Positions 162-26,858 of a DNA stretch of 64,000 bases are shown here, piece by piece. Made by a program: the position numbers and the translations under genes. The stretch's first letter is position 1. Each line of letters opens with the position of its first letter. This DNA is from Echinarachnius parma. Its lineage: Eukaryota; Echinodermata; Echinoidea; Clypeasteroida; Echinarachniidae. The notes under the pieces are model-generated. The model had not been told where the DNA came from, ran no database searches, and worked only from the letters and a program-made list of their open reading frames with translations. The stretch lies in contig JBAMJV010004365.1 in assembly GCA_037951105.1 (NCBI GenBank), positions 62,001-126,000 of the forward strand. Reading direction: 5' to 3'.

Positions 162-453
162 ATAAACACAGCGTTCAATCCAGTTGATAAAAAACACCTC
201 AAATCAGTATTATCATTATATCCTCTTATTAATTACGTCTTAGATTATATAATATAAATCGTATGGTACATAGTTCACATTTGTTAATTGTTATTTGTAC
301 AGAATAAAACGCATCACTTGTGTAACATGTTTTCATATACTACAGAGTGAGTCAGAAAAAAATGTCCCATCTTTTAAAAGTTGTCTTGTTTGAAGTATGA
401 ACATTTAATAATGGATTTTATGATATGTCTTGGTAGAGTTATCCTTCCAGCAT
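162..453 (+). repeat. 5' target-site duplication (292 bp) of a LINE
   Basis: This 292-bp stretch is identical by eye and equal in length to 20,691-20,982. It stops exactly where LINE coding sequence starts, and its partner starts exactly where the A-rich LINE tail ends, which is how a target-site duplication looks. Its right part (from about 350) is the left end of the MITE found whole at 20,879-21,862, so the LINE landed inside that MITE. Such a length is far above the usual 5-20 bp for LINEs. Confidence 0.75.
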
Positions 454-847
454 TAAGAACTGGTACTCAAGTGGAATAATTTATTTGAAAAATGTTTGTT
501 GTGATAATAGATTTATTACAACATCAACATTAATAGAAAATGTTCGTAATAAGAAATCAAAAGTAATTGTAATGTTTGAATATTTTAGATTACAAAAAGC
601 GATACCCAAAGTATGGATGAATAATTTGAAAGAACCAATATGTTTAGAAATACCAAAAGTTTTGATTGGAGGAAAAGAAAGACTTATTCAAAAAGTACCA
701 AGTAAATTATTTTACATTTTACTTTCTAAAAATGGAAATACAATTGAAGGCCCATCATATTGGGTAAAGAAAATAGACTGCTATGTTGATTGGAAATACG
801 TTTATAAACATACCCAGAAATTTGAGACGATATCAAGCGATTGCAAA
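454..847 (+). mobile_element. LINE (L1/Tx1-type) ORF2, upstream half
   Basis: The frame through 485-847 is open and encodes the region between reverse transcriptase and the C-terminal zinc knuckle of an L1/Tx1-like ORF2. Recognisable pieces are an ILLSKNGNT-like motif, then W-K-Y-V-Y-K-H and an I-S-S-D-C-K ending. The LINE is 5'-truncated, because coding sequence starts abruptly at the end of the duplicated target. The frame breaks after the lysine codon at 845-847. The continuation (L-R-Q-F-N-F-K) is at 20,125. This is a retrotransposon remnant, not a host gene. Confidence 0.75.
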
Positions 848-1087
848 CGTAGAGGGGGTATGACCGGTATCGCCTGAACTCTTTCATGTTTCCCGCGCTA
901 CCCTATAATGCATGCGTATTGCGCACTAGCTCCATGGAGATCGCGCGTAAATACGCCAAAGCCTTGGAAACACGCGCAGTCGTAGTTAGCCATGCGCGCA
1001 TGCATATGCATGCATTTGCGGGGGGCCGGCCGGTGTAGAATTTGCATGTATAATTAGTATGCACACACGTCGTAACGCGTATACTGT
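848..1087 (+). promoter_or_regulatory. CpG-rich promoter-like region
   Basis: GC content and CpG density rise sharply from 848 compared with the AT-rich LINE and the intron on either side. There are several cgcgc and gcatgcat runs and a gggggccggccgg block near 1,020. It lies just before the first coding exon of the chromodomain gene, so a promoter and 5' UTR are plausible. No TATA box was clearly placed. The sharp change at the insertion edge is notable. Confidence 0.4.
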
Positions 1088-4000
1088 ATGCAAGGATCCC
1101 GTATACTGAAACTGCGCTGCATGCATACATTTACGACGGTCACCGATGCGTATCGTCAGCACTCTCGTTCAATTCAACCAACCAGAGAAGCGACAAGCAC
1201 GCCCCAACCCAGCCGGCATATCATGTGGCCCGTTTCACGGGTAATTGCAAGAAAACAAACGAGAAGGGTAAGTAACACTGTTCATCATTGGCCAGCAATG
1301 GCAAAGTGGGTCATCAATAAATTAATAATTCATGACGGGCTAGCCTAATTAACATATTGATGCATTGGGCCTGGGTCGGGTATTACCAAAGACTGTAGAA
1401 TTATATTATAGGCTAGGTGGGGGTGGGGTGGGGGTGTGTCAGTAACGTAGCCAAATTAGTAGTCTATTCCAAAGTCTAGTATTTCAAATTTGATTAAATG
1501 TTTGTGCCACGCGAGTCATCATAGTCAGTCTATATAGGACACAGTCACTCATAGCTAAGTATGATAACCAGGGAAATGGGAGTATAATAAGCCAATATTT
1601 TTTACTACATCATGATCATATGAAATAAAAACATGAAGTAATGATATGGTGTTAGTTAGTTTAGTGATGGTGATCGATGATGTCGTTTTGTTCATTATCA
1701 TGAAAATATGTTTATCCCCCTTTGTGAATAAGGCCTATTTGTTATTAAAATGAAATAAATTGCAATGCGAGTGATCATGACGATGTAGATGTAGATTGTA
1801 TTTTTCATATTAATAGTTGCAATGATTAATTAATAAAGCAATAATGTATTCCAAGGAATTACCAATTGGTTTCATACTAAGCATACATCATATCCCTTAT
1901 TCGCCACACCCTTGGGTGTTTCACAAGTATTCCAAGTTGAACGTATCCCCGTTTGGCGTAACAATGATGTAAAGTCACTTCTAGCCTTGGAATAGAAAAT
2001 ATTAAAAAGCAAAAACTACTAAGTACCTATGAAACTTCTGACAAAAAGCTTAATATCAATCATTTATAGGCTCCTTCATATCAACAATATAACTAATATT
2101 TATCTAAAGTAATGCCTCTTCAGTTACAAAGACACTAAAGGCTTTCCATAATTATAGTTATATCCAACTTAGTTCATCTTTGAATCTTTGTGAAACACCC
2201 CCCCCCCCCCCCCCCCCCCATTTCTCAACCTACTTCTCTCATTTCTCATATTCCACAACCAAACAATTTAAAGGATCATTCATTCATCTCATACTTATCA
2301 AGCTTAGTTTGAAATTGTACCAATCGTGGCTCCTAATTAAAGGTGCACCAGTCCTGTAAAGTGTCTTAATTCCACACAAAATTAATTTGAATTCCACTTT
2401 TCTCTTCTACCGTGTATGGTACGAGAATAAAATAGGGTTAAATGTTGTCAAATACCCTTTACATAATCATTCAGCTCAAGAGCGTTAATGAACGGTCATA
2501 AACATTACACAGTAATTATTTGTAAAAGCTGACGCAAATTTCGCTTTTTTAACCAGGAAAACAGTGTTATTTATTCAATGAAACTTTCACACATCGTTTG
2601 GATATATCTTACGATTATTTTGATGTAGGATTGAAGTCTCACATGCCATTTTGGGTAATATCTGACACTTTACAGGTGCGCCTTTAATGACAAAATAAAC
2701 AGAACATCATGAGCCTTAAAAGTATACATGAATATTGGTACTTGCTGAAATGCCCCATGACTCTAAATTGGATGGTTTTAATTCCATTTCAAAGTTCATT
2801 GAATGAATGTTACCAATATTCAAGTATCAATATTGAATGAAACGTAAAATGAGAACCATTCCCTTTCGAATGCTCTCAGGTGTAACATTAGATTTAAAAA
2901 CATGTTATTCATAAAACGACCCTGACGGGGGTCCACTTCTCTTTTAAAAATGCAGCTTTAGTGGGAGGTTAGGGTTAGGCAAGGGGTGGGGCACATTCAT
3001 CACTGCCTCCCCAATCATCTATAAACAATAATACAAAACACAAAGGGAAATTGCATGAAGTGTTTATTTTAATATATTTAATCATTGTAAATGCAGTTTT
3101 GAACTATTTTTCAGCAGGGCCATGACAAAAATACTACATCATACATGTATACAATAAAAGATCATAAGTTGCATATTTACAAACATGTTTTACAAGTGCA
3201 GCTAACCAACCATAATACTGACTTCAACAATAAGCAGCGCATGAGCACAAAAGTGCGATTTAAATAAATATTTAAGGGATAAAAACAAAACTATGAAAAA
3301 ACAAAAACCAAATTACTCTCTTCATCTTCTTACTTACCTGCATCATTACATTACAAACTAATAGTTATAACTAGAAAGGAACACAAAATTACAAATGATG
3401 TAGTAAAGATCATGTTATCATTCAAAAAGAGCCGTTAAAACGTAAGAGAGCGCTCTCTTAACACTCGTCGGTTTGAAACATTTTGAATAAAATATTGTGC
3501 ATGTGATGTTTTGTTGAAATAGTGATTAGATAGAGAAATAACCAACAACTACTGGTATTTAAATACCTATTTTGTAACTTTTTGAAAAGAGGAAGCATTT
3601 TTTTGAATTTTTAACGGCTGATTAAAAATTCTCTAATAAACCTGGGGCCCCAGCTTTATTACAAATTGTTATATTTATGGATATTTCAGCCATCTCTGAA
3701 CCGATTTTGATCAAACAAAGATGATTTTATTATTTAAATATTATGCTCTTTCAAATTTTACACTCAGTTTTTCATTACCTCACAAAAAAAAAAGTAGTCC
3801 AGCACCCTCTCTACCAAAACTCAACTATCATTTTAATAATTAAATATAAAATAAAACAAAGTGTACAGTATATCCAAAAATTAAAAATGAGGTTTGTTCC
3901 GGATTAACAAAATAAGTTCATTTCATTATTGGATTAATGAATTTACGGAATATCAAACCTGATTTAACTTTCGGATAAACAAACCTTAGGAATAATGAAC

Positions 4001-7000
4001 CTTTATATCATACAATCAATTTACATAAAATGTAACAACTGAAATACACAAAGAAAATACAAATATATAATTGAAAACTTGAAAGTGTGGATCATGTAAA
4101 TCAAAGAATCAGGATATTAAAATGCAGAGGCAAATTATTATAAGTATGAATCTTTTCCGGCCAAGATCTGCCAAAATTTTCTGAGACCAAGGGAAACTTT
4201 TGAAAATCCTCTCAGTTGAGGAGGGGAGGGGGGGGGGGGGGGGGGTGGGGGGTTGTCCATCGGCAAAAGTTTACCTGGTCAAGAATGCCTGCCAAAATTT
4301 GTTGAGACAGAACTTTTGAAAAATCCTTTCAGTGGGGGTGGGGGGACTGGTGGGTGTGTCCGTCACCAAAAGTTTTCCCGATCGAGACCACCTGCCAAAA
4401 ATGTTCAAGGCTGAGGAAATATTTTGAAAGTCCTCTCAGTGGGGTGGGGGGCAATTGAAGAGTTGAACACAACCCCCTCCCAACCAACTCATCTCACACC
4501 ACAATGAGTATCATTTATTGAATAATTTTTATTTTATGCTTATATAATTATTGTATAAGCCAAACAAGTTGCCCCCCCCCCCCCCCCCCCCCCCCCCCCA
4601 CCGGTTCTGTGGCTCCTGATAGATAGTTGTTTCATCATCATTCTTAAGCATTTTTATTCTGGAGTAAATATTTTATTACACCTAATGGCCAATAACAAAT
4701 AGTTTTAAGCATAATTAGTATTGATATCACAGTAAAAACAGAAAATTACAAATTTTCCCAATTGGACCATGTACAAAACAAATGGCATTTTTTTGTATCA
4801 AAATTTATTTCCTTTTTTTTTGTGTGTGTTTAAGATTTAACAATGTTTTAAGATAAAAAATGACATATTACTATCCAAAATAGCATTCTTTATCATTTGC
4901 TGCTTGGATTTCAAAATAAACTTAATTCAGGAAAAATCTGAAAAATGTGTGTACAGTGTGGAAGCACTGCTGTACATAACATATGAAGGAGGGTTCCCAC
5001 CAAAATAATGCGAATATTTTCCTCTCAAAATAAATTTTCGTTAATTAGCAAATAGTTCATTTTAAAGCAAAAATACATGAAACTATTTGATTCTCTTTCA
5101 ACTACACCCTAACTGTATACAAAAGAAAGAAAATTTATGATGAAATTGCATTGAAAATGGGATTTAGTCTGGATTAAATTCCGTCCTGTCGTCCCGTCGC
5201 GAAAATGTCAAAGCCTAATAGAACTTTTCTGAAAAGAGGAAATTAAATTCTAACATCATAAAAGTGCCTGTTCGGGCATGAATCCATTGATACTTCAGAG
5301 AAGATGGCAATAAATAACTGCTCTAATATTGAGTGACGCTAAAAAAAAATGGATGTCAAAACGCGACGGGACGGAAAAGTGTCAGAATAAGGAAATTTTT
5401 TGCCCAACTAAAGAGGGCGGTATTATACGAAATGTGTGTGGTACAATTGTCCTATGCATGAGCTATCCAAAAACACTACTATATTTCTAGAATGAATCTT
5501 AGTTTTTTGATTAATCAAATTTTTCAAAATTCCGTCCCGTCGCGCTGTGAGGACACTTTCCATTATTTAAAAATTGTATTACAGGAAATCCGAGAGACGG
5601 TATGCTTAGCCAAACACAGTTCCTTTCATCAATTTGAAATTTTTACCCTTGGGTTGATTACTTTTGGCTTTGGCCCCATGGGATGATGAATGATTAATTC
5701 TTAAATAAATGCATGCTTTGAATATGTATAAAATATGTGACAAAAATGCATCATCTGCTCTGATTTAATTTGCAGGGTGGAGAGTACCAGTACCTGGTGA
5801 AGTGGAAGGGATTCTCCACAAGGGATTCTTCATGGGAGCCCTCTACCCATTTGACCACGGATCTCATCACTAATTTTCACTCGCCCATCATCCCTGAAGA
5901 TATAGCAACAGACCACAGAGACCGATTTGAGGAGGAGATCCAAAAACATTTGATGAGCAGAACTCAGTGAGTAATTGTTAATCTGTAAATTATTAACCCC
6001 AGAGACCTTCAGAAACGGCAAAAGTACTACTGCAAATATAATAAAGTCGATATGTTCATCTGTGATTATTCACACATGTAAATTATATCTAATAACATTA
6101 TTATTTCAATTTGATCTAAATTTCAATGGTAAATTTCTTCCAAGGATGAATTTGATTCTAAAGGCAATTATTTTGAAAAGCGAATATATCTGCCAAAATT
6201 GTGTATAAAAAAGTACACAAATTCAAAGAGAGTTCACTTTGATCAATAAAAAGTACTTAAATTAGAGCTGAGTCAAATCGAATGGCTATTCGATATCCGA
6301 CCGTGAAGGTCGGATACCGAATACAAATTTTCGGATACGAATATCCGAAAAAAAACAGAAAAAAAACAACAAAACAAAACAAAACAAAACAAAACAAAAC
6401 AAACAAATCGTTTTTTTTTTTTTCTTTCTTTTTTTCCCCGTTTAATTTTGTAATCCCTATTCGATAGATTCGATCAAAAAATGGCACATTGAACCCTGCT
6501 TATCTATTGCTAAAGTTAAAAGTTAAGGTATTTTACCTAAATTCACAAATAAACAAAACAAATAATAAACCAAAGGTAAGAGGATTAATATACAAGTGGT
6601 ATAGTGAGTGCCAAATTTAGAAGAATCTATGATGAGATATCAAAGTATTTCATCTTGACAGCAGTTTGTACACTAACATCACACTATACTGCCGATTCTA
6701 ATTGAAAAAACGGACAGAATATCTATTTTTTTGTTTTTTGTTGAATATTCGATATCCGACCGTTTTTACACGACTCATATTCGAAATGCAAAATATCCGG
6801 TTTGACTCAGCTCTAACTTAAATAACAGCTGAAATGTCCAGAAGTATATATTATTGTAATGAATATCATTTTGAGTTCCTATTAAAAATTGGAGAAATCT
6901 AAGTAACAGAAAAAGATGATATCATATCAGAGAATATTATATTGTTGTATTCGTCTTTATTGGCCAAAAAGCATTCATATACATCGAAATATACAGTACA

Positions 7001-7577
7001 TAGAACGTAATAAGCACAATAAAGATGGAAAATCTACATTATATGTATAACATGAATCTATATAGATACTGGTGTGCGATTGGTCAAAATGCTGTCACGT
7101 GACCATCGCAACAAGGATAAGAAGCGTTATATTGACCAACATGACGTTAATTACGTCATACCATTAGATATAAGGCCGTTATATCGACTGGTATGACATA
7201 ATTTAATAAAAGTGACAGTATTAGCTTCCCTTCATACGTGCAATCAAATTTTACTTTTACCTTTTTACCTAATTTTACCTTTCTACAGAGGAGCTTTCAA
7301 CATCCAGTTCAAGCATGATGTGGCAAGGCGAGTTTTCAGGCATCAGGAGGAGCATCAGGAGGAGACATTTCTTGCCTGGGGCCTGAGGGACGGCTGGGAC
7401 AGGTGTTTAAATAAACAAGGGGAAGGGAGACGTATCGTCTTTCCACTGAACATTAAATCAAAGTTGCTGTGGTCTCGCAAATCATTTGAAGTGGTCGATG
7501 GCAGACTACAAGAAAAGCCCAGGACACCTGTCGAAGTAATAAGAATAACATGCGTCAAAGAAGCATATGCCTTTTGA
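1088..7577 (+). CDS. Chromodomain protein, 219 aa, three exons
   Basis: Exons are 1,088-1,267, 5,776-5,966 and 7,289-7,577. The splice sites are AGG|GTAAGT, tttgcag|GGT, ACTCA|GTGAGT and ttctacag|A. The phases agree (0, then 2) and the joined frame stays open to the TGA at 7,575. ATG 1,088 is the first ATG after an in-frame TAA. A chromodomain spans about residues 44-95 and is split by intron 1. Exon 1 gives W-P-V-S-R-V-I and exon 2 gives Y-L-V-K-W-K-G-F and S-W-E-P. W47, W70 and F73 sit where HP1 and Polycomb have the aromatic cage that binds methyl-lysine. The product is therefore probably a nuclear histone-methyl reader. The 95-residue C-terminal part, rich in Arg, Glu and Trp, is not recognised. 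It is not a retroviral-type integrase chromodomain because the gene is spliced. The stop codon lies at the edge of the tandem array that follows. Further 5' exons cannot be excluded. Confidence 0.6.
2197..2219. repeat. Poly(C) tract
   Basis: An uninterrupted run of about 23 C. It is one of many similar homopolymers in the window. Confidence 0.9.
2341..2683. mobile_element. TTAA-flanked MITE, GGTGCACC family
   Basis: TTAA at 2,337-2,340 and 2,684-2,687 flanks inverted ends that read AGGTGCACC...TGTAAAGTGTC and GACACTTTACAGGTGCGCCT. There is no coding capacity. A second copy lies at 34,683-35,043. TTAA duplication suggests mobilisation by a piggyBac- or Kolobok-like transposase. It lies in intron 1 of the chromodomain gene. 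Confidence 0.65.
3330..3838 (-). mobile_element. TTAA MITE, GGGCGCT family (reverse)
   Basis: The stretch matches, in reverse, the 43,189-43,739 copy: attacaaactaatagttat at the left, a 'gccgttaaaa' to 'gagagcgctct' block, and ctctaccaaaactcaacta at the right. The family is non-coding, about 530-550 bp, with ends AGGG(A/G)TAGTT and a TTAA target. This copy is in intron 1 of the chromodomain gene. Confidence 0.55.
4153..4460. repeat. Three diverged ~115-bp tandem copies with G tracts
   Basis: The phrase gccaaaa(a)t(t)tt...gagac...cttttgaaaa(t)cctctcagt recurs three times, each copy followed by a G-rich run (the longest at about 4,218-4,254). No coding sequence. A C run of nearly 30 follows at 4,572-4,600. 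Confidence 0.55.
5178..5560. repeat. Interrupted inverted copies of a CGCGACGGGACGG motif
   Basis: The motif ttccgtc(c)cgtcgcg occurs near 5,180 and 5,529, and its reverse complement cgcgacgggacgga near 5,362. The CpG-rich motif stands out from the AT-rich intron. No further interpretation is supported. Confidence 0.4.
6263..6815. mobile_element. hAT-type MITE
   Basis: Ends TAGAGCTGAGTCAAA and TTTGACTCAGCTCTA are inverted repeats. A perfect 8-bp duplication ACTTAAAT flanks them (6,255-6,262 and 6,816-6,823). An 8-bp duplication and a TAGAG start are typical of hAT elements. There is no transposase. It contains an (AAAAC)n run near 6,365 and lies in intron 2 of the chromodomain gene. Confidence 0.8.
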
Positions 7578-8990
7578 ATCCTATTTTGTATACTGAGCTC
7601 TTAAGGTTGCATCTTCACGTTTTCTGTTGTGAAACATAACCATTTTTTATAGAAGTTCTAAAAGATTTACATAGAAGCAGATTACTGTTTTGTTAACGTG
7701 AAAGTTCATATTAACAGATTTATGCATATATGCCTTTTGAATCCTATTTTGTATACTGAGCTCTTAAGGTTGCATCTTCACGTTTTCTGTTGTGAAACAT
7801 AACCATTTTTATAGAAGTTCTAAAGATTTACATAGAAGCAGATTACTGTTTTGTGAACGTGAAAGTTCATATTAACAGATTTATGCATATATGCCTTTTG
7901 AATCCTATTTTGTATACTGAGCTCTTAAGGTTGCATCTTCACGTTTTCTGTTGTGAAACATAACCATTTTTTATAGAAGTTCTAAAGATTTACATAGAAG
8001 CAGATTACTGTTTTGTGAACGTGAAAGTTCATATTAACAGATTTATGCATATATGCCTTTTGAATCCTATTTTGTATACTGAGCTCTTAAGGTTGCATCT
8101 TCACGTTTTCTGTTGTGAAACATAACCATTTTTATAGAAGTTCTAAAGATTTACATAGAAGCAGATTACTGTTTTGTGAACGTGAAAGTTCATATTAACA
8201 GATTTATGCATATATGCCTTTTGAATCCTATTTTGTATACTGAGCTCTTAAGGTTGCATCTTCACGTTTTCTGTTGTGAAACATAACCATTTTTTATAGA
8301 AGTTCTAAAGATTTACATAGAAGCAGATTACTGTTTTGTGAACGTGAAAGTTCATATTAACAGATTTATGCATATATGCCTTTTGAATCCTATTTTGTAT
8401 ACTGAGCTCTAAGGTTGCATCTTCACGTTTTCTGTTGTGAAACATAACCATTTTTTATAGAAGTTCTAAAGATTTACATAGAAGCAGATTACTGTTTTGT
8501 GAACGTGAAAGTTCATATTAACAGATTTATGCATATATGCCTTTTGAATCCTATTTTGTATACTGAGCTCTTAAGGTTGCATCTTCACGTTTTCTGTTGT
8601 GAAACATAACCATTTTTTATAGAAGTTCTAAAGATTTACATAGAAGCAGATTACTGTTTTGTGAACGTGAAAGTTCACATTAACAGATTTATGCATATAT
8701 GCCTTTTGAATCCTATTTTGTATACTGAGCTCTTAAGGTTGCATCTTCACGTTTTCTGTTGTGAAACATAACCATTTTTTATAGAAGTTCTAAAGATTTA
8801 CATAGAAGCAGATTACTGTTTTGTGAACGTGAAAGTTCATATTAACAGATTTATGCATATATGCCTTTTAAATCCTATTTTGTATACTGAGCTCTTAAGG
8901 TTGCATCTTCACGTTTTCTGTTGTGAAACATAACCATTTTTTATAGAAGTTCTAAAGATTTACATAGAAGCAGATTACTGTTTTGTTAAG
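7564..8990. repeat. Tandem array, ~162-bp unit, nine copies
   Basis: Units start at the motif atatgccttttgaatcc (near 7,568, 7,729, 7,890, 8,051, 8,214, 8,376, 8,537, 8,698 and 8,859) and differ by only a few bases. The first unit contains the stop codon of the chromodomain gene, so the array grew out of that 3' end. The last unit breaks off at gttttgttaag, 70 bp before the RAG1-like ORF. Confidence 0.9.
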
Positions 8991-9060
8991 ATACACCTTC
9001 ATATATTTAGTTGAGATATTTTTCATAACATATTAATTGAAATCCATAGTAACAAGAAAA

Positions 9061-11385
9061 ATGGAAAATATAGAAGTTGAGCTAGCTCTAAACCCAGATA
9101 GATGTTCAGGTACATTTGATTATATACACAATGATTTAAACCAAGAGAAAATTGCAGCAATTTTGCGCATTACAAAAGGTCAATTACTGAATATTGAACA
9201 ACTACATTGTGAATTTGAAGATTTCACTTATGTAGATATTCTGAATTATTTACTCCAGAATACCATAACGCTTAAGAATGAAGATGAAATAGAAACCAAA
9301 CTGTCACTCAAGTGTTGGAGGGCAGTTAATCAAACAAAATGTTTGAAAGGAAGAAAAAGGGAAAACACTATGGAAGAAATCTGCACCATCGGTGTGAAAA
9401 ATAGATTAATCATAAAATCCAAAGATATCACGGATGAGATTAGGGAAAACAAAGCAACAATCAAAAAACTTGTAAAGGAAAGAACAATCATGAAGGAGAA
9501 AATCGAAAACTTGACAAAAACACTAATAAAAGAAAGAGAGAAAAAAGATGAAATTTCTGAGGAGTACGAATATGCATTAAAAATCATTCAGGAACTAAAA
9601 AATGAAAACGAAAAGCTGAAAAAAAAAGAAAATGACAATGAATCAAACAAAAACATATTTGATAATGTTGGGCATATCTCGCCAAATGTCTCAAATAGAC
9701 AAAAAGATAGGAAACTTTCAACACTCAAAGATAAGGCAGAAGTTGCATTATGGTTTTTGGAGAGTTTTGGAGTCAAATTGGAAAAAATAGTTGTTCGTGA
9801 TTACGTTGATCATCAATATACATTAAACTATAACAGAAATGATTTAACAGCAACAGATCTAGATAAACTGAAAAGTGTCCTTTATATTTTAGATAAATTT
9901 TGTGTATCTGATGAGATGTATCACGAGATGACAATGATAAGTAACGACTTACCTAGATCCTATTTAATCAAACAATCGAGGGACGAAGAAAATTCAAATA
10001 TCCATATCAGTGCCACACCAGGGTCGGCAGAGGGTGCTCAGCTGAGATTCATTGATGACCTGACCGCAAAAATAAAAAAAATGCAAAAATCAAATCATAA
10101 CCTTGATGAAATCACTGTAAAAATTGCTGGGGATGGTGCCAGACTGTCTTCAATGACTAATTGGGTAACCCTTACGTATTCAATTATCAAAGATCCAAAT
10201 GCACCATATGATTCTACACCACAACACAACGTTATTGCTATTGCAAAAATAAAAGAAGACTACACAAACATGTCTACCTCTTTCCACGAAATATTTTCAG
10301 AAATCAATTCATTAATCTGCGATGGCACGATGAACGTGGATGGAAAAGAAATTAAATTAAACTTTGTGCTTGGTGGAGACATGAAATTTTTACTAACGGT
10401 CATGGGACTGAAACATGTTTCTTCCAATTATTTTTGTCTGTGGTGCAATATTCATAAGGATGATATTGGTGATATTGGTAAAAATCTCAACTATTATAAC
10501 GAAAGACCAAGAAAAAGGACATTGTCACAAATGGATGAAAACCTACACAAAAAAAAATGTTCATGTGAACATCCACCACTGTTACATATTGAACCTGAAA
10601 GTGTAGTTATTGATGAATTACATATGTTATTACGAATTACTGATATCTTACTGAGAAATCTTGTCATTGAAGTAATTGAGAAAGGAGAGAAGGAAGCAAT
10701 CATGGGGATGAAGGGAAAAAAAGAAGAAAGGCTACAAGAACTTGTAGAACTTGTACGGTCATGTGGGGTACCCTTTAATATCTGGCCAGCAAAAACAAAT
10801 ATAAACGGTTGCAAGTATGACTGGACAAGTTTGCATGGCCCCCAAAAAAAGAAACTTCTTGCCAACCTCCCTGACCGTCTTGCTGATTGTAACTGCTTGT
10901 TTGACAATTCTAAAACAACTGTAATTAAATTATGGCATGATTTTTTGTCTTTGTATGAAACAATTTGTATATGTTCTTCCACACTTGATGACCAGAACCT
11001 TGTCTTTGAAAAAAGTAAGCAATGGTTAACAGATTTCATTTCATTGCGTGGTAAGAGACAGATGTACGGAACAACATATATAACACCATATATGCATGCT
11101 TTGTTGTTCCATTTGCCAAATTTGATGTTTCGGCATGGAAACCTTAAATATTATTCATGTCAGTTGGTAGAAAAAATGAACGATACACTGAAAAAAATCT
11201 GCCATAATAAGACAAACAAATGGAACCCCACACGAGATGCATTAAAAGTTAGTAAGCGGGTCGTTAATTTGGAAGATGTAGAAAGAACAAAAAGAAAGTA
11301 TGTAAAGACAAGCACCTACTGGCAAAAAGAAATAAAAGATCAGCGACAATTGAGACTGAAGAGTTTAAAGTCATCCGAACAATAA
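9061..11385 (+). CDS. RAG1/Transib-like DDE transposase-type protein, 774 aa
   Basis: Single exon; TAA lies in frame just upstream (9,034) and ATG 9,061 is the first ATG. Residues are numbered here from the TTG at 9,037; subtract 8 for the ATG. A Lys/Glu-rich coiled coil covers about 130-200. The core follows: GDG with D366, LGGD with D448, C467-x-x-C470, an IDELH motif at 525-529, ITPYMH with H687, H692, and E712. D448 to C467 is 19, C to C is 3, H to H is 5 and H692 to E712 is 20. These equal the RAG1 spacings D708-C727, C727-C730, H937-H942 and H942-E962 (mouse numbering). IDELH also matches RAG1's IDALH. D366-D448 is shorter than in RAG1 (82 against 108). A DNA cleavage and transposition role in the nucleus is inferred. 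No RING or PHD is seen. The ORF is fully open, so it is recent or under selection. It could belong to an unnamed metazoan transposase family rather than to RAG1L proper. AATAAA (11,381) overlaps the stop codon. Confidence 0.7.
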   Translation: MENIEVELALNPDRCSGTFDYIHNDLNQEKIAAILRITKGQLLNIEQLHCEFEDFTYVDILNYLLQNTITLKNEDEIETKLSLKCWRAVNQTKCLKGRKRENTMEEICTIGVKNRLIIKSKDITDEIRENKATIKKLVKERTIMKEKIENLTKTLIKEREKKDEISEEYEYALKIIQELKNENEKLKKKENDNESNKNIFDNVGHISPNVSNRQKDRKLSTLKDKAEVALWFLESFGVKLEKIVVRDYVDHQYTLNYNRNDLTATDLDKLKSVLYILDKFCVSDEMYHEMTMISNDLPRSYLIKQSRDEENSNIHISATPGSAEGAQLRFIDDLTAKIKKMQKSNHNLDEITVKIAGDGARLSSMTNWVTLTYSIIKDPNAPYDSTPQHNVIAIAKIKEDYTNMSTSFHEIFSEINSLICDGTMNVDGKEIKLNFVLGGDMKFLLTVMGLKHVSSNYFCLWCNIHKDDIGDIGKNLNYYNERPRKRTLSQMDENLHKKKCSCEHPPLLHIEPESVVIDELHMLLRITDILLRNLVIEVIEKGEKEAIMGMKGKKEERLQELVELVRSCGVPFNIWPAKTNINGCKYDWTSLHGPQKKKLLANLPDRLADCNCLFDNSKTTVIKLWHDFLSLYETICICSSTLDDQNLVFEKSKQWLTDFISLRGKRQMYGTTYITPYMHALLFHLPNLMFRHGNLKYYSCQLVEKMNDTLKKICHNKTNKWNPTRDALKVSKRVVNLEDVERTKRKYVKTSTYWQKEIKDQRQLRLKSLKSSEQ

Positions 11386-11386
11386 A
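11381..11386 (+). terminator. AATAAA overlapping the stop codon
   Basis: The TAA stop at 11,383-11,385 lies inside AATAAA. If used for polyadenylation it would give a 3' UTR of only a few tens of bases. Confidence 0.4.
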
Positions 11387-11639
11387 CTCCTTACTGTCCT
11401 GTGAACTGGGCCAGTAAACGTTACATATTTTTTGTGCATTTTTTCACTGTTGTGTAATTCCATGATAACTGATACTACAGTGAAGAAATTTCAACCTAAT
11501 GTGTGGTCTTTAAATACATAATAGCTGGTTGTTGTAATTTGTTGAAAGTTATACATGTTTAAACAAGAATGAGGAATTAAGTGGCAAGTTTTTCACCTAA
11601 ACTTTATTCCTTATCGAACAGTTTTTACAATTTTGTATA

Positions 11640-13312
11640 CATGTTTCTCTGGTTACTCTATTCATGTGAAATATTACTGGAGTATCAAGTGTAATATCTG
11701 ATGTTGACTTATTAGAATGTCATGATTGTTAAGACATTATATACCTATGTTCCCAGGAACAGAAGTGCACAATAAGAAGGAATTTGACAGTTTCCTTGTA
11801 TTGGCAATTACACTGTAACTGATGTTGCAGTGCAGAATTTTAACTGGTTACTCTATCCATATGAAATATTATGTAACTATCAAGTGTAATATCTGATGTT
11901 GACTTATTAGAATGTCATGATTGTTAAGACATTATATACCTATGTTCCCAGGAACAGAAGTGCACAATAAGAAGGAATTTGACAGTTTCCTTGTATTGGC
12001 AATTACACTGTAACTGATGTTGCAGTGCAGAATTTTAACTTTTGTTATGATAACATGTTTCTCTGGTTACTCTATCCATATGAAATATTATGTAATTATC
12101 AAGTGTAATATCTGATGTTGACTTATTAGAATGTCATGATTGTTAAGACATTATATACCTATGTTCCCAGGAACAGAAGTGCACAATAAGAAGGAATTTG
12201 ACAGTTTCCTTGTATTGGCAATTACACTGTAACTGATGTTGCAGTGCAGAATTTTAACTTTTGTTATGATAACATGTTTCTCTGGTTACTCTATCCATAT
12301 GAAATATTATGTAATTATCAAGTGTAATATCTGATGTTGACTTATTAGAATGTCATGATTGTTATGACATTATATACCTATGTTCCCAGGAACAGAAGTG
12401 CACAATAAGAAGGAATTTGACAGTTTCCTTGTATTGGCAATTACACTGTAACTGATGTTGCAGTGCAGAATTTTAACTTTTGTTATGATAACATGTTTCT
12501 CTGGTTACTCTATCCATATGAAATATTATGTAATTATCAAGTGTAATATCTGATGTTGACTTATTAGAATGTCATGATTGTTAAGACATTATATACCTAT
12601 GTTCCCAGGAACAGAAGTGCACAATAAGAAGGAATTTGACAGTTTCCTTGTATTGGCAATTACACTGTAACTGATGTTGCAGTGCAGAATTTTAACTTTT
12701 GTTATGATAACATGTTTCTCTGGTTACTCTATCCATATGAAATATTATGTAATTATCAAGTGTAATATCTGATGTTGACTTATTAGAATGTCATGATTGT
12801 TATGACATTATATACCTATGTTCCCAGGAACAGAAGTGCACAATAAGAAGGAATTTGACAGTTTCCTTGTATTGGCAATTACACTGTAACTGATGTTGCA
12901 GTGCAGAATTTTAACTTTTGTTATGATAACATGTTTCTCTGGTTACTCTATCCATATGAAATATTATGTAATTATCAAGTGTAATATCTGATGTTGACTT
13001 ATTAGAATGTCATGATTGTTATGACATTATGTTCCCAGGAACAGAAGTGCACAATAAGAAGGAATTTGACAGTTTCCTTGTATTGGCAATTACACTGTAA
13101 CTGATGTTGCAGTGCAGAATTTTAACTGGTTACTCTATCCATATGAAATATTATGTAATTATCAAGTGTAATATCTGATGTTGACTTATTAGAATGTCAT
13201 GATTGTTATGACATTATATACCTATGTTCCCAGGAACAGAAGTGCACAATAAGAAGGAATTTGACAGTTTCCTTGTATTGGCAATTACACTGTAACTGAT
13301 GTTGCAGTGCAG
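11640..13312. repeat. Tandem array, ~218-bp unit, eight copies
   Basis: The phrase atctgatgttgacttattag recurs eight times between about 11,697 and 13,180. Most units are about 218 bp. The first (about 195 bp) and the one ending near 13,135 are shorter because they lack a cttttgttatgataacatg segment. Each unit has a small imperfect hairpin CACTG...CAGTG. The array begins 255 bp after the RAG1-like ORF and shares no sequence with the upstream array. Nothing is recognised at 11,387-11,639. Confidence 0.9.
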
Positions 13313-14768
13313 AACTTGTCTGTCTGGCAGTTTTTAAAATAAACATAGCTGGGGTCATACTTCTTCATATTGTACATGTAACAAGAGTGAAGAAATAAGG
13401 AAAAAGTTTTTCTCCCACACTACATTCCTCATCCAACAGTAAGCAAAAATGTGTTTGTAATTGACTTTATGCAAATAGGACAAGCAAAAAGTTGACCTGA
13501 GTTGAATCAACATATCTCTGTCCCTGGCTGTTATGCAGGATATGACGGTGTTGTGCATGTATGCACCACAGTGCTGAAATTGTACACTTATTACATTTCT
13601 ATGTGCTGGCTTGAGTTGTACCCATGACATGGATTGATATAGCCATGTTTCTTTCGTGCTTGGAAATTGCTGTATTAATAAGTACTACATAAATGTTAAC
13701 ATATTTATTATCATTATAAATGATCTTGATGAATTTGATGTTCTTCAATACACAATACTTTGTTTCCTTTTTAATTATTGTGACATTGTTTACATAGAGT
13801 ACTGCAAAAGATTTCTCATTTGCAGTGTGAGGTGTACTCATATATTGTATGCATGTGCCTCTATATTTTTGTTTAAAAATGTATTTGATGATTCCAATAC
13901 CTAATTATTTAGCCTTCACATTGAGCAAACTATAACTTTATTAACAAGCTGATTATACGTGAAGAACTGAACACAAATTTGATAAAAAAAATTGTTGTAA
14001 ACACAAGCTCATCAATTTATGGTCATGTGTCATGAACTCACCTCCAAATAGGGTGGAGCTGTTACATTTTGAGTTTTTTTTGTGAGTTTTTTTTTTCAAA
14101 ACCTGAAAACCGTTAACAAATTTGATCTGTAAAGTTTCAAAGGTATATACCACTTCCCTTTAAAGAGGAGATATAGGAATGTGAATGTCTGAGAAAGAGG
14201 ATGACACAGGAAGCGGCACTGCTGTATAAGGTCTATGGAAAAATGCCTCGCAGAGTGAAATTTTTCTTTAAAATAATAATAACTTTGTCAAAACTAGATG
14301 TATAGCAACAATGTTGGTATCGAATAGGAAGCTGAAACAAAATTTGTGAAGTATAAATGAAAAAATCTCTTGCAAAATAATAATTTACCCCATACAATAA
14401 TAATTGCTGTAAAGGTCTAAGTCTGATCTGCATGAAAACATAATTTCTTATCTAGATCAAGTTATCAGGAAAATATTGACCTCTAAAATTGTAAACAAAA
14501 TGTCATGTTTTGTTTCATATGAACAATTAACTGTACACCCAGTGTTATTTCTGAGTACATATTTGGGTTCCTTGGGAAATGTCCTTTCAGAAAATGCATA
14601 TTTTTGATAGGGTAGGGGGTCTTCCTCAGAAAATATTTGCCCCCAACTGTAACATTATCCCTCACATTCAGAAGCCAGAAACAGCATGTAACGCAAAAGT
14701 AGGTGACCTCACAACGCATGACCATATAAGTTTATAGAAAAACAATACATTATGCAGTAGATATGTAC
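13313..14768. other. AT-rich stretch, no gene recognised
   Basis: The part near 13,380-13,440 is a diverged copy of 11,550-11,630 (acatgt..aa.caag.atgag...ctttattcc). A strong minus-strand donor (ggag|gtgagt) lies at about 14,037, but no coding exon could be attached to it. Confidence 0.4.
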
Positions 14769-14850
14769 CTTTAATGATAAGTTTAGCCACAGCAAAAATG
14801 TCCAGTTCCAGAGTAAAGATCAGCTTGTTCATGACAATTATCGTGTCTGT
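14769..14850 (-). CDS. Candidate internal exon, minus strand
   Basis: On the minus strand the sequence tttactttttcag precedes an 82-nt exon that is open in one frame (27 codons plus one base) and ends AAAG|GTACAT. The peptide starts T-D-T-I-I-V-M-N-K and is mostly hydrophobic. No family is recognised. It might belong to the same transcript as the candidate exons at 15,868 and 18,987, but the phases do not prove this. Confidence 0.25.
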
Positions 14851-15867
14851 CTGAAAAAGTAAATTGAGATGGTTGATACAAACAACTTTTATAATGCAAA
14901 TGAATAAGATGTGGAAGTTTCATAGAAATAGCAGTTTACCTAGTGTAGAAAGAGAACATTTATGTAAGGTCTTATCCCCTTTCATTAGCTCAAAGTATCA
15001 AACCATCAGTAAGTAGACATTTGAGATAACCATTTCATTATTCTGTATTTAAAAATAATTTAAAAAACACAGTATAAGAGAAACTAAATTCTATAAATGA
15101 TTTTCGTTAAACTTAAAGTAAAAAAGTAAATGGATCAAACAAATTTCAATTAGAAAATAAGCTCTTGTAATATGTGACTAATACTAAATTGTGTACTGTT
15201 CATTTTGACACAAAGCTGATTTTTCTAACAAAACATTAAATGAAATAAAGATGTAAATACATTTACTGCAACTTTAAATACATTTCTGGTTTTTGAGTTC
15301 TTCTTCCAGTGAGTACATCACTCTTCTAGAGTATTGTCGTACTTGGTGAAAAAGGTGCGCGGTCACAGGAAAAGTGACAGTGGAAAGTCATTTGTAAATT
15401 AATTCTGAGTGGTAATGAATGTGAGAATGTGAAGATTTAAATGCACAACATATTTGCATACACATACGACTAGCAATTTTTGATATTAACATTACTGTCA
15501 TGGAATGCTCCAATTATCACAAGCTTGCTGCCAGCATCCGCTGGGACCGCTAAAAATGAGTCTTGAGTAAGGCCTAGTCTTGAGCCAAACAAATTTCATT
15601 AACGCAAAATTTTACTTGTAATGGGCAAACAAATATATTGGAATTTGAAACATGTTTCTTTGTTTGGGACCATCACATAAGGGCAGGTGCAAGCTTATGT
15701 CTCTCTTGATGGTGAAAATTCTTTCATCATTTTAATTGTCAGATTTGCTATCATTTAAAGGCTAAAGGTGTATTCTGATTTCCGAAAAATATTTTGATTA
15801 CCCGACTGGGGTCACATACTTAATTTCCAGTATTGAAAAATAAAACATGCATACTCATAACATTTAC

Positions 15868-16000
15868 CTGTTCACATTAGTGTAGACTGCTGTTTATCTG
15901 TCAATACCAACTCACTGCACCAGTTAATGAGGTTTCCATCAGCCCATATCATGCACCTGCAGCACAGCCTACCACCAGACCATATATTGCAGATGCACAT
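15868..16000 (-). CDS. Candidate exon with 42-aa ORF, minus strand
   Basis: On the minus strand, ggtagcttcag precedes an ATG-started frame of 42 codons (16,000 down to the TGA ending at 15,872). A good donor follows 4 bases later (CAG|GTAAATG). The peptide is Trp- and Cys-rich (I-W-S-G-G, M-I-W-A-D-G-N). A stop so close to the donor makes this either a terminal coding exon with an intron in the 3' UTR or an upstream ORF. It is not recognised. Confidence 0.2.
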
Positions 16001-16677
16001 CTGAAGCTACCTTCAATCAATAAAGGGAAAATCTAAATTATAAAAAATCTGAATATTTTTTTAACTTCACAAAATGAATTACTACGTAATTTGCCTTCAA
16101 AGACAGTCAATTATAATAAAGATAATATGTACCGTGACAAAATTATGCGTCTAGAATGAGTGACAGTGTGATTGCGAATGCAAAAATGAGATGAAATTAA
16201 AGGGATACATGTAGTTTGGCAAAATTAACTGATTGGTCAAAATTATTTCTAGTGGCCAAATAAAATTTCAGGTGGCCATTGGCACCTGAGCCACCACTAA
16301 GGTCTAAACACAAGCCCTGGACTTCCAAATGTAATTTTAGGGTATCACTTATTGTAGTTTCAGGAGGAATTTGGGAATTTGACTGGGCAGAAGCCTATCT
16401 GAACATGTAAACAACTGGTCTATTTTTGCAATTAAAATATATAGGGCAGTACAGCTTTGACACAGATCCATTGCAGTATACCAGTAACGGATCACTTTTT
16501 CTACTTAAACTTTTTGCCATGTTGCCCAGTCAGGCATGTTCAACTTTGAGTGGCTCAAAACCTAAATCTGGTGGCCCAAACAAAGAAAATCAAACGGGGT
16601 CAGTAGAATTTAGAATCAATGAAATTTGGTGGTAAATGGTCTACCTGAGTAGACCATTTACTTTGTAGATGTGCTTG

Positions 16678-17831
16678 GGGCAAAACTATACTTTAGTAGG
16701 CTTAAAGAATTTTGGTCGCTAACTTCAATTTTCGAACTGCCCAATAAATCTAACTTATAGCCACTAAATCTAACCATACTCCATAGGATAGCCACTAAAT
16801 CTGGGTTATAGCCACTAATGCACTTATCAATTGTATGACGCACCTAGCGACCCCCGGGGATGGTGCGTCACTGGTCCTATGTGAGTCAGATTTCGGTTAC
16901 CATGACGTACCCCCGTGTCAAAATTTTGACGGACCATTCAAATACATGACGGTACATACGGTGACTTATGTGACGGACCATCTCTTGATTTTGACGAACC
17001 ATGACGGTCAACTATCTTTTTCTACGCATGCGCACTATGCTTTCTGCACGCGAGCATGCATAGTGACGTGTGCATCATCACCACGCGCGCGTCTATGACG
17101 TGACGATCTTTGTTCTGGTTTAATATATTGTTTCATTCATCCCGATCCCCGCCGGAACTGCTTTTCTTTGCAATGAAACGGCGAGACAAATGCATTTTTT
17201 ACTGTTCATTTCACGCATTTTTCGAATTCCAAGTAAGTTCATTTCAACTCCAATATCATTACAAACATTTGCATAATAATGAATAATGTGTTTGATATAG
17301 TGGAACATTTCATGTGACATACAGATGGGAATTTAAATTGTTAAATCGATCGTCATACATGTGTCGTCGCAAATGACATTGCAGCTGAAATTCAGGCATT
17401 ATGCCGCTAGCTCGGGGCCGGGAGCGCGCTGCCGGTGTAGCGTAGATTGCACGCTAGCGCTGCCCGGCCCGCAGTTCCGGCAGTGCACGCAAATTGACAC
17501 ACAAGGGTAAACTGACAATGACGCACCCCTTTCGTCATGATATGACGGACCAAAAGTTGATTTGACGGTACATGCATAAAAAATGTTTTGGTAAATGACC
17601 CAACCATGACGCACCATCCCCGGGGGTCGCTAGGTGCGTCATACAATTGATAAGTGCATAAGTCTGACCTATACTAGCCACTAAATCTGACATACATGTA
17701 TAGCCACTAAATCTGACGTATAGTATAGCCACTAAATCTGACCTATAGCCACCAAATTTAGGGTTATACTTAGGGTTAGGGTTGAAGTTAGCGACCAAAA
17801 TTCTCTAAGCCTACTAAAAGTATAGTTTTGC
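16678..17831. mobile_element. Inverted-repeat element with CpG-rich core
   Basis: The left arm ggcaaaactatactttagtagg is mirrored at 17,810-17,831. A second inner arm (gacgcacctagcgacccccg, about 16,838) is mirrored near 17,620. Between them are repeated tagccactaaatctga blocks and tgacggaccat motifs. The centre (17,020-17,480) is CpG-rich. There is no long ORF. Confidence 0.6.
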
Positions 17832-17832
17832 C

Positions 17833-18546
17833 TAACTCTAGTGAACGCTAGCATGGAGCCTAGCGTTCTAGGTCGGGCTGATAGTGCCCCCGAATTTATC
17901 ATTTAATGTGAACGATAATTGTGCTTAAAATGATACATATGATACGGTACTTACCACCGATTGGACGATACATATGTGATACAACTATGCCTATGGGGTG
18001 GATCAGAATGATGATTTTTTGCTCCATTCCGCATAAAAATGAGTGATTTATGCAGCTCATCGACTTCTTTCCGTGTCGTATCGCGACTTCTGAACGACAG
18101 ATGATTGCGCTATACTATATAGTTTTCATCCAAGTCGCCCGCCAATTCCAAATAGACGGCAGATCTGACGCGCGCGTTTAGTGGTCGTACGGACGTACGC
18201 GTCAGATCGATCTGTCGTTTACTTGGAATCGGCGGGCGACTTGAATGAAGACTATAGCGCAATCATCGGTCGTTCAGAAGTCGCGATACGACAAAGAAAG
18301 AAGTCGATGAGCTGCATAAATCACTCATTTTTATGCGGAATGGAGCAAAAAAAAAATCATCATTCTGATCCACCCCATAGGCATAGTTGTATCACATATG
18401 TATCGTCTAATCGGTGGTAAGTACCGTATCATATGTATCATTTTAAGCACAATTATCGTGCACATAAAATGATAAATTCGGGGGCACTATCAAGTATCAG
18501 CACGACCTAGAACGCTAGCGCTCCGCGCTAGCGTTCACTAGAGTTA
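17833..18546. mobile_element. 714-bp foldback palindrome
   Basis: Arms of about 355 bp pair from aactctagtgaacgctagc at the left to gctagcgttcactagagtt at the right. The centre is near 18,185 (cgcgcgtttagtggtcgtac). The arms differ by scattered substitutions and a few small indels. It encodes nothing recognisable. Confidence 0.75.
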
Positions 18547-18588
18547 AGTTTTGCCGTGCTTGGCCCCACTTCCACGCACGCGTTCATG

Positions 18589-18635
18589 TAACTCAGGTGA
18601 GCGCTACCGCTCCGCGGTAGCGCTCACCTGAGTTA
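18589..18635. mobile_element. 47-bp mini-palindrome with 9-bp target duplication
   Basis: Perfect 22-bp arms (TAACTCAGG...CCTGAGTTA) surround a TCC loop. GCGTTCATG flanks it directly on both sides (18,580-18,588 and 18,636-18,644). The arm resembles the right end of the neighbouring 714-bp palindrome, including the same TCC loop, so it looks like a separately moved end. Confidence 0.65.
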
Positions 18636-18986
18636 GCGTTCATGGACATGGGTCATGGTCAATCAAGGAACAAAGCCAGGAATTGGTCACGCCTGCCTGA
18701 TCTCACATCATCCCCTTTTTTTAGTTTTTAAAGTTTTAGGCTAGCTCAAATTATTTTCTAATGACCCCACATTGGGCTTATGATGGCCTAGTATCAATCA
18801 TGCCTTGTTGGGTGGAACTCCCTTGATCATTGTTCATTGGCTTTGCCTTTGGCTATAGTCTATAGACTATTGGGCTAGGCCACATCTACAAAGTAAATGG
18901 TTCACTCAGTTTCAGGGCCAGGCTTTAGCCTTGAATTAAATATGTGAAAATTAGTTTAGTATATAACTTAAAATAAACAGACTTAC

Positions 18987-19140
18987 CTCAGGAGTACGGA
19001 GTCAGGCTAGGCTCAGGCACATAACATGCCATTGCCAATTAATATCGGGATCGGGACTGTCCGTCGTCAGCATGGCTGATCTAGATTTTAGCTCTGCATG
19101 CGCCATCATGATCAGATCAGGTCTCAAATATTTGTTATTC
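18987..19140 (-). other. Candidate 5' exon of a minus-strand transcript
   Basis: On the minus strand a strong donor CTGAG|GTAAGTC lies at 18,986/18,985. The sequence upstream (19,000-19,520) is GC- and CpG-rich, like a promoter. The exon 5' limit is unknown. It may be non-coding. With the CpG-rich start at 848, this gives the 19.3-kb insertion inward-facing promoter-like regions near both ends. Confidence 0.3.
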
Positions 19141-19149
19141 TTTCTTAGC

Positions 19150-19560
19150 TTATTCTAGCTCTCGAGAAGTACCCTTTTTTAACAATTATGTCGCACTGTA
19201 TCTAAATGTCAGATTGGTAATTCTCGCTCACTTCCATGTAATCAAGTCAGCTGTAAATTGTACAGAACTATCTAATAGCAGATATCGTACACGATAAATG
19301 ACTTGTAGTTTAATAATTCGAATTCATATACACGTGGGTACCCCCAACCGGTACCCCGTGCACGATATACCAAATTAAACAGTAGCACTGCACTACGGAC
19401 GTGCGTAACTACTACACACGCATCAGATTCAGATCTATACCATCTCTCTTCGCTGTTACTGCGCCCGGGAGTCCTGGCGCGGACTAGTCAGCCGGCTGGC
19501 CGGCTAATAAGCCGCTAAGAGCTGCTGCACGCACACGTACGTACACACAAAACACAATGC
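19150..19560 (-). promoter_or_regulatory. CpG-rich region, possible promoter
   Basis: The part from 19,380 to 19,560 holds cgcccggg, ggcgcgg, gccggctggccggc and cgtacgtac motifs, in contrast with its AT-rich surroundings. A short palindrome GGGTACC...GGTACCC lies at about 19,337-19,357. It lies upstream of the minus-strand donor at 18,986. Confidence 0.3.
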
Positions 19561-20120
19561 ACACGTGCATTAATGTTGACCACGCCCACTACGCTAATTT
19601 TCCCGCGAGTAGGGGAAGAATTCTGTTTAGAAATATCGCGTGGGAACCAAGAGATTTGTGGTTGGCGTAAATCTAATACTTTTATATAAAAGTCCAAGTG
19701 ATGTCCTTTCGCATCCCGCCTTGTATTTTTTTTTTAAAGGTCAATATAAATGTAAATTTTTAGGGTGAAAGTGGGTCTATAAGAGTCTTTAACACGTGAG
19801 TCTATGGACGGTCTGTCAAAAAATCGCCCAAAATCGTGACTTCTGTGGGAACTCTGTGTGATGAAGTATAAATTAAGCGAACTGCATAATTAGATAGTTT
19901 GTCAAATTTGTATGACCGCCCCGTCTTGTATTTTTTCATTTAAAGTAGTTTTCATACTTTAAAAAGTGAAATGTTATGGCGTTTGTACACGCGTCTATGG
20001 GAAATAATGGAGACTAAACGCGGTTCTACCGAGTGAGGGCGTTTGAAACGATACTAATCGATACCAACTTTCGTGTCTTACATTTCTGGACTTGAGAAAT
20101 TTTGTGGTCATTAAGGAGAA
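19561..20120. other. Right end of the insertion, no gene recognised
   Basis: No ORF or repeat match is seen. The last bases before the LINE resumes are ttaaggagaa. Their complement was compared with the left end (cgtagagggggtatgacc) and shares only ATGACC at a shifted position. Confidence 0.5.
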
Positions 20121-20690
20121 CAAATTAAGACAATTTAACTTTAAAGTAATTTATAATTTGATTGCAGTAAAAAGAAAATTATTTCTGTGGAAACTTAGTG
20201 ATAGTGATACATGTGAAACTTGTCACTGTCGAGAAGATTTATATCATGCATTATTGGAATGTAAAATGAATGAAATATTTTTTAGAAATTTTACGCAAAT
20301 GGTAAAATATGTTTATAATGTAAATGTAGAAATAAATGTATTCACATTATTGAAAATAAATGTAGAAGACAAGATTAATGATATTCTAACTATAGCTTTT
20401 TGGAGCATATATAAAATGATAGTTATCAGAAATCAATCAGGAAAAGATGAAAGAAGAACAAAATTATGGTTTACTTTCTTAAATGAGGTTCACGCCCGCA
20501 TACAAATTAATGATTATTTGCATAAAGAAAACAAAAAAAAATTGTATTATTTACCATTGATGATTAAAACATATTTGTAATGTTTAAATTGATGTAAAAG
20601 AGAAAATGATTGAAACATGATTTGTTAAACTGTATGGAACTTGAAGTGAAATCAATAAATGCCTGGAAAGGTGAAAGAAAAAAATAAAAA
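20121..20690 (+). mobile_element. LINE (L1/Tx1-type) ORF2, C-terminal half and tail
   Basis: The frame K-L-R-Q-F-N-F-K-V continues the half that ends at 847. It includes the zinc knuckle C-E-T-C-H-C-R-E-D-L-Y-H...E-C, a hallmark of L1/Tx1-type ORF2 C-termini, and ends in TAA at 20,578. About 110 bp of 3' UTR and an A-rich tail (aaaaaaataaaaa) follow, directly joined to the second target copy. Confidence 0.8.
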
Positions 20691-20982
20691 ATAAACACAG
20701 CGTTCAATCCAGTTGATAAAAAACACCTCAAATCAGTATTATCATTATATCCTCTTATTAATTACGTCTTAGATTATATAATATAAATCGTATGGTACAT
20801 AGTTCACATTTGTTAATTGTTATTTGTACAGAATAAAACGCATCACTTGTGTAACATGTTTTCATATACTACAGAGTGAGTCAGAAAAAAATGTCCCATC
20901 TTTTAAAAGTTGTCTTGTTTGAAGTATGAACATTTAATAATGGATTTTATGATATGTCTTGGTAGAGTTATCCTTCCAGCAT
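20691..20982 (+). repeat. 3' target-site duplication (292 bp) of the LINE
   Basis: Same length and sequence as 162-453. After 20,982 the target continues as the intact MITE, whereas after 453 the LINE begins. Confidence 0.75.
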
Positions 20983-22559: not shown

Positions 22560-23274
22560 AGCCCAGGATTCTTCCAATGGCTGAGCGATGTATCTCGATA
22601 ATGTTATATATCAGATATCCAGGTATACTCTGTTTACATTCAAAAGATTTCTCACAAATTTAGTATCTCCTTGGGCCAAGTGCTTGGTTATATCATCAAT
22701 TTTTTCAAATCCAGGTGTTTATAGTCAGTATTTCATTTGGCCTGTTGCTGCATGAAATCAGTCTGATCACCCCCGGTTCTTTCTTCTTCTTGATGATGTT
22801 CTTTCCATTATCTATTATTATCTAACCTATACCGTATGTCCCCCAAAACATTACAATCGGACTTTCGGCAACGATAACTTTAAAGATTGCAGGTCAATCA
22901 TAATGCTATTTCAGGGTATGACACTATAACTTATTACCTACATCTTGCAGAAAACCCTATTCGATTTGATTCATTGGTCATGGAGAATGGGGATTTTTGT
23001 GATTAAGTGTCATGGGTCCGTTTTCTTCAAAGTTTGACACTTTGATGCTCTTGGCACCCACATGAATGGAAATATTTTGCTCACAATCGTCAGCTCAACT
23101 AACAAATTAGTTCAAATTCTGTGCATACCTCAATGGTGTGTACTCGTGTGAGGTTTCGTTGTTGAAAGATGTATTGATCTCTCAGAAAAGGAAAAGATAA
23201 GGAAAGCCATAAAGGAGGAAGAGTTAATGATTTAATTTTTCTCTGTACTCATTCAGTTTCACACCTTACCAATG
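22560..23274 (-). pseudogene. Degenerate copy of the repeat-protein 3' end
   Basis: Minus-strand similarity to the gene at 25,384-26,700 is clear in blocks: agatttctcacaaatttagt and ttgggccaagtgcttggtta (the GD repeat), then ggcctgttgctgcatgaaa and tcttcttgatgatgttct. Frames are broken by indels and deletions. It is an older, decayed duplicate beyond the recent array. Confidence 0.55.
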
Positions 23275-26700: not shown

Positions 26701-26858
26701 CTGTAATAAAAAGGAACACCAAGAATTAAAATTAATGTACACACTTACTGTACATACATGTTTATATTATGTAATATCGATACATTTACATGTGGGTATG
26801 AAACACTTTTTTAAAATAATAAATACAATATTGAATAAGATATAATTTTGTACTTATT

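Follow-up and report, generated by a model that had tools for sequence, protein, structure and literature searches.

What is the long, gene-bearing segment that interrupts a long interspersed nuclear element (LINE)-type open reading frame (ORF) unit in the echinoid Echinarachnius parma, and how was it inserted? The segment lies in a 64,000-nucleotide stretch of contig JBAMJV010004365.1 (assembly GCA_037951105.1), referred to here as the window. An earlier reading of these letters (the original prediction) placed it at positions 848 to 20120, between the two copies of a 4-bp CAAA duplication, and found no terminal inverted repeats. We compared the window with its own assembly (1,200,326,526 bases in 14,790 contigs, with the window on contig C4363). 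The segment is a mobile element, with shared edges at many loci and with empty sites. It is probably a giant, autonomous DNA transposon of the cut-and-paste type, a member of the RAG1-like clade that spans 809-20094, carries its own DDE (aspartate-aspartate-glutamate) enzyme and makes no target duplication.

Edges of the insertion and ends shared with other copies

The edges are set by copies of the LINE unit that lack the insert. The original prediction had suggested looking for empty LINE sites, and all seven fetched copies are of this kind: 453-808 is joined directly to 20095 to about 20690, and the site reads TTTATAAA followed without interruption by AGAAATTTTG. The insert is therefore 809-20094, or 19,286 bp. 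Elsewhere in the genome, the 39 other scored matches of the LINE unit to window positions 700-1000 all end at 808 (40 of 235 candidates were scored). The claim that a segment of about 19.3 kb interrupts a LINE-type ORF unit was thus borne out, whereas its edges were not. With 809-847 (39 bases) assigned to the insert and 20095-20124 (30 bases) to the LINE, one CAAA (844-847) stands inside the element and the other (20121-20124) inside the LINE; the pair is a coincidence rather than a duplication, as is the shared reading frame across 847/20125. The pair was never strong evidence for a duplication, because 2.2% of random cut-point pairs in the window share at least 4 bases. LINE continuity at 847/20125 was also tried with the Pfam zf-RVT profile, which gave 18.1 bits on the joined halves versus 18.4 for the right half alone; this lack of a gain is, in hindsight, a sign of a wrong join.

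The duplications that flank the LINE are identical at 292 of 292 positions. The LINE is therefore recent and the insertion later, in agreement with the original prediction. A duplication of this length is unusual for a LINE. All seven fetched copies of the unit (L002-L008) begin at window position 453 and finish within a few bases of 20694, which points to a fixed-length LINE-derived repeat of ~956 bp rather than to random 5′ truncation.

At the edges fixed by the empty sites, the left end, CATACCCAGAAATTTGAGAC, and the reverse-complemented right end, CAAGTCCAGAAATGTAAGAC, agree as inverted repeats at 15 of 20 positions, a level reached by 5 of 200,000 random pairs. Terminal inverted repeats, reported missing, are thus present at the true edges. 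The termini are of the CA..TG type (CATACC...ACTTG), and the first three bases of the two ends are CAT and CAA, not CAC. At 848/20120, inverted similarity is at most weak: 2-4% of stretches in this sequence score as high, and an apparent excess over shuffles (down to 2/200) finds no support when ranked against the whole window. A smaller element with inverted ends around the transposase ORF within 848-20120 was likewise rejected (25 weak candidates, where two shuffled controls gave 29 and 24).

The same right end recurs across the genome. The last 300 bases of the element match 40 scored places, out of 89 candidates and with the window included, at 95-100% identity; 36 of these matches end exactly at 20094, three end 1 base short and one ends 5 bases short. 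By its own test, the original prediction would have failed had the other copies shared no edges. Instead, the break falls at CTTG in all 20 fetched right-end loci (window included), and the flanks beyond it differ; in one locus (L019) the last base is different. A shared breakpoint with different flanks argues against two explanations left open earlier, reintegration of extrachromosomal circular DNA (eccDNA) and misassembly. One of these loci, C14129, is a second giant copy. It has a different flank and shows 5 differences from the window over 7,022 bp (13072-20094), nested elements included, so that the visible part differs by 0.07% between the two giant loci.

Nine copies were examined for a left end, and two of them (C14129 and C1295) reached the end of their contig first. 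The other seven have both ends; six of them measure 6,080-6,702 bp, and C6316 is 8,268 bp long. All seven begin with CATACCCAGAAATTAGAGAC, have only the end regions in common with the giant element and contain no transposase ORF. Six lack any ORF of at least 150 codons; the 397-codon ORF of C6316 resembles a reverse transcriptase and probably belongs to a nested element. These shorter relatives look non-autonomous. On contig C1893, left ends of the shorter family occur twice (L040 and L041), ~2.9 kb apart and both after cgaaaatata, as if part of one copy had been duplicated locally.

The target site

Among the 16 copies with both flanks, none shows a target duplication of at least 4 bp (lengths 4 to 9 were tested). 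Identical flanks of 1, 2 and 3 bp occur in 5, 1 and 1 copies, where mispaired flanks lead one to expect 3.8, 1.07 and 0.27. (A stretch at the expected left end was fetched for 19 right-end copies, of which 11 showed no left end there; for C1124 no such stretch exists.) Empty sites were sought for 12 of the 16 copies, those outside the window being neighbouring repeats within the fetched loci only, and nine alignments from five copies were inspected. In four insertions with empty sites (the window LINE, C4313, C6316 and C5241), 0 bp were gained or lost at the junction. The joined flanks of C4313 align without a gap to a neighbouring, uninterrupted repeat, at 97.25% identity across 400 bp. For C6316, three alignments have no gap within 30 bases of the junction, and an apparent AA repeat pre-exists in the empty sites. 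C5241 is gapless at the junction; two 1-base gaps lie further left, at a distance of 15-25 bases. A target duplication is therefore absent from the copies examined, and the element and its shorter relatives seem to integrate without one. The left flank is A-rich, with A in 10, 10 and 8 of 16 copies at its last three positions, and no copy of the 16 sits in an AAA/TTT target.

Contents of the element

The coding content described in the original prediction, a chromodomain (Pfam Chromo) and a RAG1-like protein, was confirmed, as was CpG-rich sequence near both ends (36 CpG within 848-1247). The 774-aa RAG1-like ORF is intact, with a DDE triad and zinc ligands and with core motifs C(2)C and H(4)H. 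D358, D440, C459/C462, H679/H684 and E704 are conserved in the alignment rows that cover them, except that C462 is T in the row of P0013. No Pfam family matches the 774-aa protein. In the structure comparison, the match list is filled by RAG1, BbRAGL and HzTransib, and the predicted fold is RAG1-like with catalytic and zinc residues in place. Outside the ORF, the insert was scanned with Pfam in all six frames (848-9060 and 11386-20120); this showed no other recombinase and, at E≤1, no RAG2-like (kelch or PHD) domain, though diverged or split exons could escape such a search. Viral and prokaryote collections contained no relatives and no exact end matches. The two matches in a viral structure library that reached E≤0.001 had low template modelling (TM) scores, and Rfam had no match in the window.

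The two exons of the chromodomain gene would join in phase at standard splice sites, judging from the sequence. The closest match of the chromodomain exon in the PDB is CBX1 (E 7e-6). A search upstream of this exon did not turn up the start of the domain; a candidate exon near 4958 has no usable in-phase donor and was not accepted. None of 18 candidates proved to be a relative of the last exon, and the structure model of that exon was unusable (predicted local distance difference test score, pLDDT, 45).

Two young tandem arrays stand on either side of the transposase ORF, and the left one starts inside the final codons of the last chromodomain-gene exon. A COMMD9 match in the 162-bp array (27.6 versus a cut-off of 27 bits, with no single passing stretch) was taken as noise. 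Towards the right end, a foldback unit nested among other inverted-repeat units has AGTTTTGCC on both sides, as if from a 9-bp duplication. The arms of the nested elements differ at 18 of 434 positions, against 0 of 292 in the LINE duplication (Fisher p 1e-4; 7/293 and p 0.015 in a smaller set). This fits arrival of the nested elements together with the insert, though arms may be imperfect from birth; their presence in the second giant copy is a more direct sign. All features are collected in the table.

Table. Positions of the element, its surroundings and its internal features in the window
Feature	Position	Strand	Basis
Whole inserted element	809-20094	+	7/7 LINE copies join 808 to 20095; right edge common to other copies
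Interrupted LINE unit, left half	453-808	+	Fetched LINE copies
Interrupted LINE unit, right half	20095-20694	+	Fetched copies; end varies by a few bases
292-bp duplication flanking LINE, left copy	162-453	+	0/292 differences
292-bp duplication flanking LINE, right copy	20691-20982	+	0/292 differences
Left terminal inverted repeat, CATACCCAGAAATTTGAGAC	809-828	+	15/20 versus right end; close form opens seven shorter relatives
Right terminal inverted repeat, reverse complement CAAGTCCAGAAATGTAAGAC	20075-20094	-	Common to the fetched loci
CpG-rich left end, possible promoter and first exon up to donor-like GGGTAAGT	809-1268	+	Putative promoter/exon role
Chromodomain exon (profile positions 15-51 of 53)	5776-5966	+	Pfam Chromo E 1.8e-9; splice sites
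Last exon of chromodomain gene, in phase	7289-7577	+	Splice sites in sequence
Tandem array, period 162 bp, 8.8 copies	7565-8986	+	
RAG1-like DDE transposase ORF, 774 aa	9061-11385	+	
Tandem array, period ~195-219 bp	11649-13317	+	
Nested small inverted-repeat elements	16645-18909	.	Includes foldback unit 17833-18546
Right-end region common to shorter relatives	19615-20094	+	88-90% over 455-481 bp, 18 loci

Outside the element, the window holds a rearranged segmental duplication at 99.8-100% identity (38785-40461/44626-46302, 42938-43953/46294-47311 and 44372-44627/47314-47569). Tandem units of ~457 bp, 97-98% alike, occupy 23273-25550 and run into a 460-aa open frame (25387-26766, minus strand) that has no clear Pfam family.

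Mechanism, rival explanations and known systems

How might such an element move? On established models, the length of a target duplication depends on how far apart the two joints lie on the target DNA. We propose that the RAG1-like DDE transposase, through the imperfect ~20-bp CA...TG inverted ends that it would recognise, cuts the element out and attaches it to the target at two directly opposite phosphates, a zero-stagger reaction that would leave no duplication. The same enzyme, which may still be active, would probably also move the ~6.1-8.3-kb relatives that have common ends and no transposase ORF. The chromodomain protein may be a passenger or captured fragment, or a chromatin-targeting partner.

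Several observations weigh against this account. The clade of RAG1 is reported with target duplications of 2-5 bp, not zero (PMC12730594). The window protein stops before a C-terminal part found in several relatives. The contig of the second giant copy begins inside the element, in a tandem array, so that its coding half, including the ORF, is not visible. Finally, the nearest empty-like sequences of two copies are less clean, with a 1-base gap 3 bases from the junction in C7785 and an 8-base gap 2 bases from it in C1235. The missing duplication is also what would be expected if a different enzyme moved the element by other chemistry, with the RAG1-like gene as a passenger. We regard this as unlikely, although it is the foremost of the rivals: CA..TG ends are in keeping with the clade to which the encoded enzyme belongs, its ORF is intact, and the Pfam scans on either side of that ORF offer no further recombinase. 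A transposon of the RAG1-like clade might instead make a short duplication that has been lost or blurred in the copies examined, as the slight excess of 1-bp and 3-bp matches (5 versus 3.8 and 1 versus 0.27) and the ambiguous sites of C7785 and C1235 would allow. Four insertions with no base gained or lost at their empty sites, and an AA repeat in C6316 that was there beforehand, make this very improbable.

Explanations without a transposon fare worse. The assembly is a draft, and the second copy's contig starts within the element's tandem array, as an assembly artefact might have it; yet the LINE halves and their perfect 292-bp duplication enclose a segment whose two ends match termini elsewhere, and the chance of an artefact is slim. 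Slimmer still is that of eccDNA reintegration or of DNA captured at a break, either of which would account for the lack of a target duplication, but not for inverted-repeat ends that recur elsewhere with different flanks. Helitron, Crypton, Polinton and long terminal repeat (LTR) element identities were rejected, as judged by termini and content only. An autonomous RAG1-like transposon that leaves no target duplication thus remains the probable identity of 809-20094.

Among known systems, the natural point of reference is the CMCT clade (EnSpm/CACTA, Mirage, Chapaev, Transib, Plavaka, ESTA and Lanisha), which includes RAG1 and is described with 5′-CA..TG-3′ termini in most cases and 2-5 bp target duplications (PMC12730594). 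The element resembles it in its DDE core, which is RAG1-like and has the C(2)C and H(4)H motifs, and in its CA..TG termini, and departs from it in having no duplication, matches of 1-3 bp being near chance. RAGL/ProtoRAG elements have ends that begin with CAC and target duplications of about 5 bp (PMC7204232). They and RAG1-RAG2 are the closest solved structures of the element's transposase, and RAGL elements also have a second gene with a chromatin-reader domain (PHD in RAG2L, a chromodomain here). In contrast to RAGL/ProtoRAG or Transib, the element has CAT/CAA ends and no 5-bp duplication. By analogy, a separate chromodomain reader beside a RAG1-like enzyme would parallel RAG1 and the PHD-bearing RAG2. 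It is tempting, if rather doubtful, to see here a new RAG1-fold lineage with opposed joints and no duplication, a chromodomain partner, and a 19-kb autonomous unit that mobilises a ~6.5-kb family.

Chapaev elements, with 3-4 bp target duplications and CAC..GTG termini (PMC4079192), belong to the same broad clade and likewise have a DDE enzyme and inverted ends; the element has neither their termini nor their duplication. Chapaev proteins are further marked by Chapa/RING zinc domains at the N terminus. Spy, of the PHIS superfamily, is described as set apart from all other DNA transposons by making no target duplication, as inserting within AAATTT, and as grouped with PIF/Harbinger-type transposases (PMC4482050). 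The element shares the lack of a duplication with Spy. It differs in its target (AAA/TTT in 0 of 16 copies) and, in a comparison by description only, probably in its transposase, whose fold matches are RAG1, BbRAGL and HzTransib. In listings of open-licence PMC papers we found no such duplication-free RAG1-fold family; with Repbase and subscription papers outside this scope, it may be catalogued elsewhere.

The original prediction held that a mobile segment of this size and content would be new, which was too strong: in the red alga Chondrus crispus, giant En/Spm (CACTA) families of 16-20 kb with 4-5 ORFs are reported (PMC6431247). They are of the same broad clade and similar size. The present element suggests that a 19-kb load, introns, tandem arrays and nested elements included, is within the reach of a RAG1-like enzyme. 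If our reading is true, a RAG1-fold family without target duplication would mean that joint spacing can change, and would offer a concrete system in which to study how.
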